DNA of 64,000 bases, from positions 1-64,000 of IMG/VR virus record IMGVR_UViG_3300036795_000211. One strand, 5' to 3'. Origin of the DNA: a virus. Below the pieces are notes generated by a model. The model worked only from the letters and a program-made list of their open reading frames with translations. It made no database searches and was not told where the DNA came from. The translations under genes were made by a program, and so were the position numbers. Positions 23,449 through 63,777 of this stretch are shown here, one piece after another (within the stretch, counting starts at the first letter, position 1; each line of letters starts with the position of its first letter).

Positions 23449-23518
23449 TGCGCACCCAGCTCTCTCCGAATGGGCCGGCGGGTCCGCATACTACCCGCCG
23501 GCCCCGCTCCCGTTCGAC

Positions 23519-35097: not shown

Positions 35098-35126
35098 TTG
35101 ACACGCCGCCCGGCTGCATGTAGTCT
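35098..35126 (+). promoter_or_regulatory. Promoter with hairpin leader
   Basis: TTGACA (35098-35103), 17-base spacer, TAGTCT (35121-35126). The leader has a perfect 6-bp hairpin (35133-35138 with 35143-35148, loop AAGA) before the ribosome site of the next gene. Confidence 0.75.
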
Positions 35127-46897: not shown

Positions 46898-46920
46898 CAT
46901 TCTTCTATGGGCATAGCGCA

Positions 46921-46961
46921 CAGGAACCCCAGCTCACTGTTGCCGCAAGCTGGGGTTCCTG
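46921..46961 (+). promoter_or_regulatory. Perfect 14-bp hairpin in the primase leader
   Basis: A 14-base arm (46921-46934) pairs perfectly with 46948-46961, loop 13 bases, no T-run after it. It lies between the promoter and two tiny leader reading frames, so it may work in attenuation or mRNA stability rather than as a plain terminator. Confidence 0.6.
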
Positions 46962-46984
46962 TTAGGCCGAGGAAGGCCACTGCG

Positions 46985-49288: not shown

Positions 49289-49548
49289 ATTCCTGTAGTA
49301 ATCCGTAATCCTGTGGACTTCTATGTAGCCGCCTTCTCCTTTCTACATGGTATCTACAGTTCTACAGATGATAGGTATGATAATGTGTCACACCTGAGGC
49401 AGGTAATGGAGACAGCATATGCCTCAGGTATGGGCCTCCTTATAGGAACTGTAATCCTGTAGTGGCTCTACCGGACTCCGCAATACTTTGAGCTGCTCGG
49501 ATAGCCACAGTATTGTAAACCTGTGACAGATGAACGGAAGGACATACG
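49289..49548. other. Origin-like intergenic region
   Basis: 260 bases without a gene, AT-richer than the rest. Repeats of GTAATCCTGT[A/G]G type at 49305-49316 and 49451-49462, with related copies at 49288-49299 and 49515-49526 and reverse copies near 49354-49366. A perfect 10-bp inverted repeat (49392-49401 with 49420-49429) lies in the middle. It follows the primase-helicase gene directly. Confidence 0.5.
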
Positions 49549-60735: not shown

Positions 60736-61030
60736 GGAACCGGGTCCGGAGAAGCGAGTCCTCGGGCGACACCACGCACCACTGGGTCAGCCGATCAGCC
60801 CGTTCAAGTACACCGTAACGCGGAACGATGGCGGTAAGCCGATTCCGCTGGACGAGCCGTGCCTGGTAATCCGCGCGCAGGACGCCTTTGCGCTCGTGTT
60901 CATTCAGATGTACATCAATCACACCCTCGATACCGTTAGTCCGGCCCTGACTAACGAGCTGCTCGCCCACCGGGAACGGATCCGGCGGTGGCAGGACGAA
61001 CATCGGGATAAGGTAAAGCTCCCTGATTGA
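60722..61030 (+). CDS. Hypothetical protein
   Basis: 102 residues (GGAGGAG site). 'HAPLGQPISPFKYTVTRNDGGKPIPLDEPCLVIRAQDAFALVFIQMYI' then a basic helix. Overlaps the previous gene by 14 bases. No family recognised. Confidence 0.6.
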   Translation: MPIVEEPGPEKRVLGRHHAPLGQPISPFKYTVTRNDGGKPIPLDEPCLVIRAQDAFALVFIQMYINHTLDTVSPALTNELLAHRERIRRWQDEHRDKVKLPD

Positions 61031-61055
61031 CAAACTTCCAGCCATTCTATAGACT
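61027..61055 (+). promoter_or_regulatory. Promoter
   Basis: TTGACA (61027-61032), 17-base spacer, TAGACT (61050-61055). The leader contains GCTGCC/GGCAGC and then AAGGAGG before GTG 61114. Confidence 0.85.
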
Positions 61056-61113
61056 GGGTAATCCAAGGGGCCGCTGCCGCCCCGCAAGGCAGCAAAGAAG
61101 GAGGTACTCAGAT

Positions 61114-61557
61114 GTGGCGCAGCGACTAGAAGCGCATCACGGCTGGAAGGGCGACAAAGCTGGCTATCATGCGCAGCTACATCGTGTACGAAGAGCACGT
61201 GGTCGCGCCAAAGAGCACCTTTGCGTGAAGCACGCAGAGAAGGGTAAGCAGGTACGAGCGAATGACTGGGCACACGTTCACGGTGAAAGTGGCTTTGACG
61301 TGTACGCGGATTTCGTTCCGCTCTGCGATCCCTGTCACGAAGAGTACGACAATCCCACGAAGGCACGCGGTGCGAGAGTGCAACTTGCTGCCGGGAAGCT
61401 AGCCGAACAGGACGTCATTCGTATTCGAGAACTGCTAGCGAAGAAGGTTCCGCAGCAGCGTATCGCAACGGAGTTCGGTGTCGTACAAACGGCAATTAGC
61501 AAGATTAACACGGGTCGCACGTACGCAAACGTGGGACGAACCGAAGGAAGTGGTTAG
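61114..61557 (+). CDS. HNH-like endonuclease with helix-turn-helix end
   Basis: 147 residues from GTG 61114 (AAGGAGG). 'LHRVRRARGRAKEHLCV...NDWAHVHGESGFDVYADFVPLCDPCHEEYD' is the HNH-like group with H, N and H candidates; the end 'IRELLAKKVPQQRIATEFGVVQTAISKINTGRTY' is a helix-turn-helix. This is the usual build of phage homing endonucleases. Codons differ from the neighbouring recombination genes (more AT-ending), consistent with a mobile gene. Confidence 0.75.
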   Translation: MAQRLEAHHGWKGDKAGYHAQLHRVRRARGRAKEHLCVKHAEKGKQVRANDWAHVHGESGFDVYADFVPLCDPCHEEYDNPTKARGARVQLAAGKLAEQDVIRIRELLAKKVPQQRIATEFGVVQTAISKINTGRTYANVGRTEGSG

Positions 61558-61960
61558 CATACCTGCAACGATTGACCTCACCGGCGTTAGCACCGAGGGC
61601 AAGCCGCCCCTGGAGCCAGACGTTTACCCGGCGGTCATCACGAAGGCCGACATTCACGACTCGAAGAGTGCCGGAGAGCCCACGCTCTACCTCGAGCTCT
61701 CCGTGAGTGACGAAGGCCGAAACGGTCGGTGGAGCACGTCACTGCAGCCCCAGTCGCTATGGCGGGTCAAGCGACTTCTGGTCAACCTCGGTCTCGAAGT
61801 CCCGGAAGGGGAGTTCGAATTCGACGAGGAGGACCTGATCGGCGTCGAGTGCCAGGTGCGGACGATCCAGGAGCCGCACTACCAGGACAAGAAGCGGAAG
61901 ACCTGGCGCATCGCCGAGATCCTCAACGAGGACGGCGAAACCGGCGAGGGCTGGGGGTAG
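61550..61960 (+). CDS. DUF669-like recombination or ssDNA-binding-type protein
   Basis: 136 residues, GTG start overlapping the HNH gene by 8 bases; no ATG is available, so the start is uncertain. 'VYPAVITKADIHDSKSAGEPTLYLELSVSDEGRNGRWSTSLQPQSLWRVKRLLVNLGLEVP...DLIGVECQVRTIQEPHYQDKKRKTWRIAEIL' fits DUF669, often encoded beside Sak4 or primase. Confidence 0.75.
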   Translation: MVSIPATIDLTGVSTEGKPPLEPDVYPAVITKADIHDSKSAGEPTLYLELSVSDEGRNGRWSTSLQPQSLWRVKRLLVNLGLEVPEGEFEFDEEDLIGVECQVRTIQEPHYQDKKRKTWRIAEILNEDGETGEGWG

Positions 61961-61966
61961 CAAGCA

Positions 61967-62081
61967 CCGGTCCGAATTGCTGCACCCGACACGGATCGGG
62001 CGTCCTAGGGCGTGCAGCCGGACCGGGTAGTACCCGGCGGGGATTCGGGATCGGAGCTGACGGGTCCCCGCCGGGCTTTTT
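61967..62081 (+). promoter_or_regulatory. Attenuator- or riboswitch-like leader with terminator
   Basis: Helix 1: 61967-61974 with 62019-62026 (8 bp) extended by 61979-61985 with 62012-62018 (7 bp) around a small hairpin. Alternative helix: CCGGGT 62023-62028 with ACCCGG 62032-62037. Terminator: 62033-62042 with 62066-62075 (10 bp, perfect), then CTTTTT (62076-62081). The alternative helix excludes both others, the usual logic of a transcriptional switch. It lies before ruvC-like, queD, queE, folE. Confidence 0.65.
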
Positions 62082-62096
62082 CGATCGGAGGGACGA

Positions 62097-62480
62097 ATGC
62101 GTGTTATCGGGGTTGACCCGGGGGCAGTATATACCGGTGTCGCGATACTGGACAGCGACGGCAAGTTCATCTACTGGAACGAGTCCGATGACCCGGTTGT
62201 CATCTGGGTCGCCATCGAAGAAGCTTGCCGTTACGGTGAAGGTGTCGTTGTCGTTGAGGACTTCCTCGGGTCCGGTCGCCGAAACGAATACACGCAACGG
62301 ACCACCGAAGCACTCGGGTACATCTACCACCGCTGTCGCGAGGAAGGCATTACGGTCGAACGGGTACCGCAGCAAGCTCGACTGGCCAACGTGATGAACG
62401 TCCCGAAGGAGATATCCCGCAAGGACGAGAAAGCTGCGGCGGCCCACGCACTCTCATACCGCGAAAGGAAACGGACTTGA
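62097..62480 (+). CDS. RuvC-like Holliday junction resolvase
   Basis: 127 residues. 'MRVIGVDPGAVYTGVAIL' (D7), 'GVVVVEDF' (E near 54), and 'RKDEKAAAAHALSY' (D, H near 110-117) form the RNase H-type acidic set. It resolves branched DNA before packaging. Coupled to queD by TTGA. Confidence 0.82.
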   Translation: MRVIGVDPGAVYTGVAILDSDGKFIYWNESDDPVVIWVAIEEACRYGEGVVVVEDFLGSGRRNEYTQRTTEALGYIYHRCREEGITVERVPQQARLANVMNVPKEISRKDEKAAAAHALSYRERKRT

Positions 62481-63013
62481 GTCCTAAGCGTACGGTCGAT
62501 CTTACGCATTATGCGCAGATCGCACACCGGTTGTTCTTGACGCCGGGAAAGTGCCAGCGTATCCACGGGCACTCGTTGACGATTAACCTCGAGCTGGTCG
62601 GGGAGGTGGACGGTACCGGGAAGATTGTCGGTCTCGATTTCGCCGCAATAAAGAGCGCCTTTCGGTCATTCGTGGACGCCTATCTCGATCACAGCTTGCT
62701 GCTGAATGAGATCGACCCGTTCGCTCGTCAGCTTCTTACGAACCCGCAGTATGGCGCAGAAGGCGGAACGTGGATCAGCGAAGTCGAACCCGCCGATCTT
62801 CCCGGGTTGCGAAGGTGCGCGGGAGACCCGACCACGGAGAACATAGCGATGTGGATCGCCGAATGGGCCGCGCTAACGTTCACGGTACTCGGTCTCTATA
62901 GCGTGTCCGTCCACGTTGACGAGACCGACACCAACGGTTCCGGGTACGAATGCGCCGTGGACCACCTTACCCGTAAGCGAGAGCTCACCGATGTACTCGG
63001 GAGGTGGAAGTGA
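62477..63013 (+). CDS. queD: QueD: 6-carboxytetrahydropterin synthase
   Basis: 178 residues, TTG start with GAAAGGAAAC site. Zinc ligands: His in 'IAHRLFL' and the HGH in 'GKCQRIHGHS', where Cys is the catalytic residue. 'DHSLLLNE', 'TTENIAMWIAEW', and 'VSVHVDET' are conserved positions. It makes CPH4, the first step after GTP cyclohydrolase in 7-deazaguanine synthesis. Confidence 0.9.
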   Translation: MSPKRTVDLTHYAQIAHRLFLTPGKCQRIHGHSLTINLELVGEVDGTGKIVGLDFAAIKSAFRSFVDAYLDHSLLLNEIDPFARQLLTNPQYGAEGGTWISEVEPADLPGLRRCAGDPTTENIAMWIAEWAALTFTVLGLYSVSVHVDETDTNGSGYECAVDHLTRKRELTDVLGRWK

Positions 63014-63777
63014 TCGACTTCGAAGCGCGTCCGTCGCGTGACTGGCTGCTGGTCTCGGAGATGTTCGGTCCTACCTTTCAAGGCGAAGGGCCGTCAACCG
63101 GACAGTTGGCGATGTTCATTCGCCTCGGCGGGTGCAATCAGCACTGCGGCTTCTGTGACACGCCGCACACCTGGGTCTTCACCGATCGTCAGGTCGAACA
63201 GCATGACCTATCGCTGGTACCGTTCAGTCCGAAGGAGGAGCTAACCCGGTACACGATTCGCGATGTCGCCGCCGAGATCATCGCGTCCGGTGTCGATCTT
63301 ATCGTGATTACCGGTGGCGAGCCACTGCTGCAAGCCGAACAGGTGGCGAAGCTAATCTCAGCGGTGAACGAGGAATCGGCACACCACTTCGAAATCGAAA
63401 CGGCCGGGACGGTCTCCCCCGCGCCCCTAGTGATGTTCGAGAACGTCCGCTTCAACGTATCGCCGAAATTGGCGTCCAGCGGTAACGAGCTCGAGCTGCG
63501 CCGGAATATCCCGGTACTTTCCGAGCTGCGTGACTTCCCGGGTACCGCATTCAAGTTCGTAATGGGCTACGAATACGGTGCCGATCTGGCCGAAGTACTT
63601 GAGCTGCAGAAACTCGTCGGCTTCAATAACGATCGAGTCTGGCTGATGCCGGAGGGAATCACGGAGAAGGGTATTCTCGACGGAATGAAGCGGCTGTCCT
63701 CAGTGGCGTTGTTCAACTACTGGCATCTCTCCACCCGCATGCACGTACTCCTTTGGGGGAATGAACGTGGCCGTTAA
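63010..63777 (+). CDS. queE: QueE: 7-carboxy-7-deazaguanine synthase
   Basis: 255 residues from GTG 63010 (GGGAGG, GTGA overlap); GTG 63004 is alternative. 'SEMFGPTFQGEGPSTG' and 'GGCNQHCGFCDTPHTW', the CxxxCxxC radical SAM site, are diagnostic; 'VITGGEPLLQ' is the SAM-binding stretch. It converts CPH4 to CDG. Confidence 0.92.
   Translation: MIDFEARPSRDWLLVSEMFGPTFQGEGPSTGQLAMFIRLGGCNQHCGFCDTPHTWVFTDRQVEQHDLSLVPFSPKEELTRYTIRDVAAEIIASGVDLIVITGGEPLLQAEQVAKLISAVNEESAHHFEIETAGTVSPAPLVMFENVRFNVSPKLASSGNELELRRNIPVLSELRDFPGTAFKFVMGYEYGADLAEVLELQKLVGFNNDRVWLMPEGITEKGILDGMKRLSSVALFNYWHLSTRMHVLLWGNERGR

Follow-up and report, generated by a model that had tools for sequence, protein, structure and literature searches.

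The operon and its one long gap

The window, the whole stretch of DNA analysed here (64,000 nt), is the first part (bases 1-64000) of a virus record that is 73,707 bases long. An exact 127-bp direct terminal repeat (record positions 1-127 and 73581-73707) is consistent with circular assembly of a complete genome. On the plus strand an HNH-like gene (61114-61557), matched to HNH endonucleases in PHROGs and with a GTG start proposed from a GGAGGT site, is followed by a gene for an SSB-like OB-fold protein (61553-61960; phrog_3724, PrgE-like), the exact start of which is uncertain, a GTG near 61553 being proposed. The next gene, and the first 3′ of the hairpins discussed below, encodes a RuvC-like resolvase (62097-62480, ATG at 62097). 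After it come queD (62477-63013), queE (63004-63777), whose reading frame overlaps that of queD, and folE (63761-64342), whose frame overlaps that of queE and which continues beyond the end of the window. A gene with only a weak DUF6610 match (64339-65130 of the record) lies between folE and queC (65137-66465 of the record), and the 442-aa product of the latter has its QueC domain at residues 219-432 with a long N-terminal part ahead. Gene calls lacking family matches are from a simple codon-usage script. According to family matches to queD, queE, folE and queC, the genes downstream of the SSB-like/ruvC gap make 7-deazaguanine. That gap, 136 nt, is the sole long one of the operon; the junctions from ruvC through queD, queE, folE and the 64339-65130 gene to queC measure -4, -10, -17, -4 and 6 nt.

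The closest promoter-like sequence on the same strand in the 6 kb scanned upstream is TTGACA-N17-TAGACT at 61027-61055, ahead of the HNH and SSB-like genes. It has 10 of 12 matches to a sigma-70-like consensus and is likely the promoter of the SSB/ruvC/que operon. Promoter-like matches are present at the corresponding place 5′ of the SSB-like gene in three of the related lineages introduced below (L001 at 2886, L008 at 4898 and L035 at 2533), and in a fourth, L014, TTGACA...TAGGCT was seen there by eye, the promoter scanner not having listed it. The promoter scan gave no match in the SSB-like/ruvC gap of any of the five lineages, and so the hairpin region is intercistronic and not the 5′ leader of the operon transcript. 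An earlier note on this DNA had taken it for a leader controlling ruvC, queD, queE and folE. A plausible terminator is so positioned that read-through could set the expression of these genes.

Two hairpins and their relatives

The gap contains, on the plus strand, a two-part hairpin, HP1 (61964-62028), and a GC-rich hairpin, HP2 (62033-62075). The outer helix of HP1 pairs 61967-61974 (CCGGTCCG) with 62019-62026 (CGGACCGG), and its inner helix pairs 61979-61985 (GCTGCAC) with 62012-62018 (GTGCAGC). HP2 has 15 pairs (62033-62047 with 62061-62075), two of them U-G, and is followed by the U-tract CTTTTT (62076-62081). The helices named in the earlier note are thus all present letter for letter; its description of three mutually exclusive ones does not hold, since HP1 and HP2, the terminator of that scheme, do not overlap and both are present in the minimum free energy (MFE) fold. 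Pair probabilities are 0.98-1.0 for the HP1 outer helix and 0.95-1.0 for HP2, RNA energies here and below referring to 37 °C and leaving pseudoknots and tertiary contacts out of account. The folding that the earlier note had proposed as a check shows the region to fold better than chance (z = -2.5, 2 of 200 shuffles being as good), and the HP2 stem itself was equalled by 2 of 500 shuffles, but the two hairpins are not alternatives to each other. The third helix of the scheme, six base pairs between 62023-62028 (CCGGGT) and 62032-62037 (ACCCGG), has a pair probability below 0.001, and a full-length fold constrained to contain it comes to -61.1 kcal/mol, as against -70.5 kcal/mol.

With a stable GC-rich hairpin and a U-rich tract directly after its stem, the window has two features of an intrinsic terminator, and the proposal that 62033-62081, ending in CTTTTT, is one remains plausible for a site between the SSB-like gene and ruvC-queD-queE-folE. 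HP2 was passed over by a consensus terminator scanner, whose limit on loop length it exceeds. That loop (62044-62064, TTCGGGATCGGAGCTGACGGG) is similar to the region of the ruvC ribosome-binding site (62078-62096, TTCGATCGGAGGGACGAATG), as if duplicated.

HP2 belongs to a wider set. Seven of the 14 longest perfect hairpins in the genome are wholly intergenic, though intergenic DNA makes up 13% of the sequence (p = 0.001), which argues that hairpin punctuation is general in this phage; HP2 alone among the 14 has a T5 tract, and long hairpins without U-runs look like the usual punctuation in this genome. Perfect intergenic hairpins of 10-17 bp without U-tracts are at 1203-1246, which stands between convergent genes, 23472-23504, 46920-46962, 49392-49429, 72253-72292 and 73011-73048 of the 73,707-base record.

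Searching an annotated phage collection, at the DNA and protein levels, with the region, RuvC and the SSB-like protein gave no match, and no relative of the SSB was found in bacterial or archaeal genomes; the comparison consequently rests on IMG/VR viral contigs found by protein-guided scans. They yield five lineages including that of the window, all uncultivated, and scans with RuvC or SSB alignments gave mostly these five again (L002 being a near-identical version of L001, and L015-L018 having exactly the gap sequence of L014). The same gene order is present in the four further lineages, with RuvC identities to the window of 68% (L001), 54-55% (L014), 50-52% (L035) and 42% (L008). The gap is 103-166 nt long, depending on lineage, and each contains a long, GC-rich hairpin in the corresponding position, ending 21 nt before the ruvC start in the window and 14, 18, 25 and 7 nt before it in L001, L014, L008 and L035, respectively. 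Its stem is 14-16 pairs in four lineages and 26 in L035, and in every one of the five it is beyond what dinucleotide shuffles provide (0-5 of 500).

The covariation search suggested in the earlier note bore fruit for HP2 but not for HP1, which does not align. Over the 12 aligned pairs of the HP2 stem in four lineages, counted on the arms alone with the loops cut out, 97.9% of cells are paired and four pairs are changed on both sides (2 of 500 shuffles; 0-1 in slid controls). Whole-gap MAFFT alignment misplaced L035, and so its stem was tested separately. Neither HP1 nor the HP2 loops have alignable conserved nucleotides across the five lineages, though HP1-like hairpins of non-aligning sequence occur in the other gaps. 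The U-tract is confined to the window lineage, being absent after the hairpin in L001, L014, L008 and L035; retention of the hairpin without it argues that termination was not the ancestral function. L009 and L020, which are more distant, have overlapping SSB-like and ruvC-like frames and hence no gap, although queD, queE and folE are kept, and so the hairpin is not required for control of que genes as such.

Proposed punctuation and its competitors

The explanation we favor, with somewhat more confidence than doubt, is that HP1 and HP2 are constitutive punctuation between cistrons of one operon, a partial terminator and/or a processing or insulating structure, that sets the ratio of SSB to RuvC and Que proteins. 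The reasons are that the two hairpins form together, that a hairpin is kept in five lineages and its stem covaries, and that it occupies the sole long gap, one without a promoter match. From the observed positions, folding, HP2-stem covariation, absence of promoter matches from the gap and window-only U-tract, we infer termination, processing and product stoichiometry at HP2. Transcription would start near 61062 and pass through the HNH and SSB-like genes, with HP1 and then HP2 forming in order while the RNA exits the polymerase. HP2 with CTTTTT would act as an intrinsic terminator releasing a fraction of polymerases, and the paired hairpins would shield the 3′ end of the SSB mRNA or fix its position. 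Read-through or cleaved transcripts would supply the overlapping ruvC-queD-queE-folE block at a lower level, its ruvC ribosome-binding site being insulated by the hairpin. The expected outcome is much SSB, which is probably needed in quantity, and little of RuvC and the Que enzymes, for which catalytic amounts may suffice, with a ligand being unnecessary. In relatives without the U-tract the same hairpin could serve as a U-less (‘I-shaped’) terminator or as a processing or insulating structure.

Terminator hairpins of the U-less, ‘I-shaped’ type have been described for mycobacteria (PMC12288462), where dependence on the U-tract appears, from that paper and the titles in its references, to be disputed. 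HP2 resembles intrinsic (Rho-independent) terminators, including these, in being a GC-rich hairpin after a stop codon, with a U-tract in the window. It differs in lying within an operon, where no promoter match follows and full termination would therefore silence ruvC and the que genes, and the hairpins of the four relatives differ further in having no U-tract.

One observation sits uneasily with punctuation alone. Folding of nascent transcripts reveals a competing helix on the plus strand, helix A, which pairs 61963-61983 with 62037-62058, excludes both HP1 and HP2, and takes in most of the alternative hairpin of the earlier note. It is the MFE structure for nascent RNAs ending at about 62053-62070 and is more stable than the HP1 fold by as much as 7.9 kcal/mol. 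At the transcript ends tested this advantage was reached by 13 of 300 loop shuffles and by none of 300 HP1 permutations, figures that are optimistic for the window because it was chosen for its switch-like look. Helix A is larger than chance by these two controls, and pure punctuation does not need it. In a conditional attenuator helix A, made from the HP1 5′ arm and the HP2 loop, would be an antiterminator that forms first, with a protein, pausing or translation then deciding whether HP2 forms; we consider such a device unlikely. Once the 3′ arm of HP2 has been made, the two-hairpin fold of the full-length RNA is better than helix A by 7.2 kcal/mol, and helix A would have only some 15 nt of transcription in which to act. 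How well the HP2 loop pairs with upstream sequence is seldom matched by shuffled loops in the window (12 of 500) and in L014 (16 of 500), where the similar competitor has 12 pairs, but such pairing is not in excess in L001 (103 of 500), L035 (290 of 500) or L008 (493 of 500). Of the attenuator-type architecture in the earlier note, the six-pair helix is negligible; helix A is a real competitor, though only in nascent RNA, and comparable pairing is present in at most two of the five lineages. Judged on these sequences, helix A may matter in the window phage and is not a conserved design. In L014 (4460-4541) HP2 has UCCUUCCC both in its loop and in its 3′ arm, and its 5′ arm can pair with the loop first, giving a nascent hairpin of 12 pairs, before it switches partner to form the full stem.

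The hairpins could alternatively be primarily a site for mRNA processing, HP2 (and HP1) being cleaved by RNase III, or a nuclease like it, to separate the SSB message from that of ruvC and the que genes. The stem, and not the U-tract, is what covariation shows to be kept, and the location inside an operon just 5′ of the next ribosome-binding site would suit cleavage. Classical RNase III sites have longer double-stranded stems, however, than the 14-16 pairs (26 in L035) available, and processing as the main function is in our estimation improbable. That the inverted repeats act instead as DNA, in a cruciform or single-strand hairpin at, for example, a replication or recombination site beside ssb and ruvC, is suggested by the SSB-, resolvase- and recombinase-like neighbor genes but is very doubtful: two U-G pairs are retained in the HP2 stem of the window and two G-U pairs in the stem of L008, pairings that form in RNA and not in DNA, and the U-tract and gene orientation fit RNA.

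The proposal that the element senses preQ0, preQ1 or a related 7-deazaguanine as a metabolite riboswitch, attractive since the downstream genes make 7-deazaguanine, can hardly be sustained: Rfam covariance models gave no match at gathering score, and even at E<=10 they brought up no known metabolite riboswitch within 61020-62120; the conserved unpaired nucleotides that an aptamer needs were not found across the five lineages; the first downstream gene is ruvC; and L009 and L020 have que genes and no gap. The statement in the earlier note that no known preQ1 class was recognizable agrees with the lack of a match to the Rfam preQ1 models. Weak Rfam matches to chrB-a, STnc310 and mir-1896 (E 2-9) are taken as chance. 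Compared with preQ1 riboswitches of classes I-III, for which the features were taken from a review (PMC11625349), HP1 and HP2 are likewise upstream of preQ0 pathway genes but have no pseudoknot, no conserved pocket nucleotides and no Rfam match. If the hairpin pair is ordinary operon punctuation, as we favor, a false riboswitch lead is removed.

A pseudoknot at the probable start of the message

Follow-up of the hairpins led to a pseudoknot that covaries in both helices and is located 5′ of the SSB genes of the five uncultivated-virus lineages. In the window it is the H-type pseudoknot GGGGC-c-GCTGCC-GCCCC-gcaa-GGCAGC at 61067-61093 on the plus strand, about 0.9 kb upstream of HP1 and HP2. It lies between the promoter-like site and the ribosome-binding site, at what would be the 5′ end of the mRNA and 6 nt before GGAGG. 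All five lineages have it, in seven copies: besides that of the window, these are at 2924-2950 and 2952-2974 in L001, 4941-4966 in L008, 3918-3945 and 3948-3971 in L014, and 2570-2598 in L035, those of L001 and L014 being in tandem. Its pair count was reached by none of 400 shuffled leaders for the window and by 0 or 1 of 400 in each lineage; all pairs of both helices are kept in the seven copies, with double changes at two P1 positions (of five) and five P2 positions (of six); and when 3′ strands were permuted among copies full pairing resulted in none of 2000 cases (mean 77% paired). The shuffle and permutation figures are somewhat optimistic, since the alignment of the copies was made by hand and the descriptor had been fitted to these very loci. 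In more distant relatives no such pseudoknot with at least 10 pairs was found within 200 nt 5′ of the SSB gene. Other descriptor matches in the genome, which at nine pairs occur roughly once every 2 kb, are taken as background, and a 14-pair match in L035 was set aside as it lies inside queC. A pseudoknot is a feature shared with class I preQ1 riboswitches, here as an element separate from HP1 and HP2, but its first loop is 1-3 nt and there is no second loop, so that none of the class I loop nucleotides is present. The 61067-61093 pseudoknot, and not the hairpin pair, appears to be the conserved control element of the operon.

The product of 61553-61960 is predicted to be an OB-fold SSB-like protein, the fold being supported by a profile match to PrgE of pCF10 (E=0.0016) and by the match of its predicted model (pLDDT 82) to the PrgE structure 8s4s (Foldseek E=2e-7). 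PrgE has been described as an atypical SSB (PMC11137577). In phage T4 the SSB encoded by gene 32 controls its own gene by binding a 5′ pseudoknot of about 28 nt in its mRNA; a segment of more than 40 unstructured nucleotides with UUAAA/UAAA repeats and the ribosome-binding site adjoins that pseudoknot, and the neighboring segG is a homing endonuclease gene (PMC535899). The window pseudoknot is likewise compact, precedes a ribosome-binding site and stands, as placed by the promoter match, at the start of an SSB message, and a gene for a homing-type endonuclease, HNH here and segG in T4, adjoins the SSB gene in both. In contrast to T4, only about 20 nt separate pseudoknot and start, UUAAA repeats are absent, the HNH gene intervenes between pseudoknot and SSB-like gene (in the window lineage only, among the five compared), the SSB is PrgE-like and some pseudoknot copies are tandem. 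On this incomplete analogy the pseudoknot possibly works like the T4 operator, and it is not called a member of that family.

A broader, tentative proposal, which we hold to be possible and not probable, is that the PrgE-like SSB binds the 5′ pseudoknot and shuts off translation, in a gp32-like manner evolved independently in an unrelated phage group, and that the intercistronic hairpins add a second point of control, at which expression of the resolvase and 7-deazaguanine genes is attenuated, possibly via exchange between helix A and HP2 when ssb translation stops. In the literature searched, autogenous control of SSB by an mRNA pseudoknot was found for T4-like phages only; if the SSB does bind the pseudoknot, such control would be a recurrent solution.

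The promoter-like site ahead of the pseudoknot is one of an intergenic TTGACA-N16-19-TAnnnT series, at 35098, 40874, 49829, 50659, 52013, 53230, 61027 and 72339 on the plus strand and 47050 on the minus strand. Several of these sites are followed by short 5′UTR hairpins of different sequence. The loop of the SSB-operon 5′UTR hairpin with a 6-bp stem occurs only ahead of that operon, and its two 4-bp matches elsewhere in the genome are within genes.
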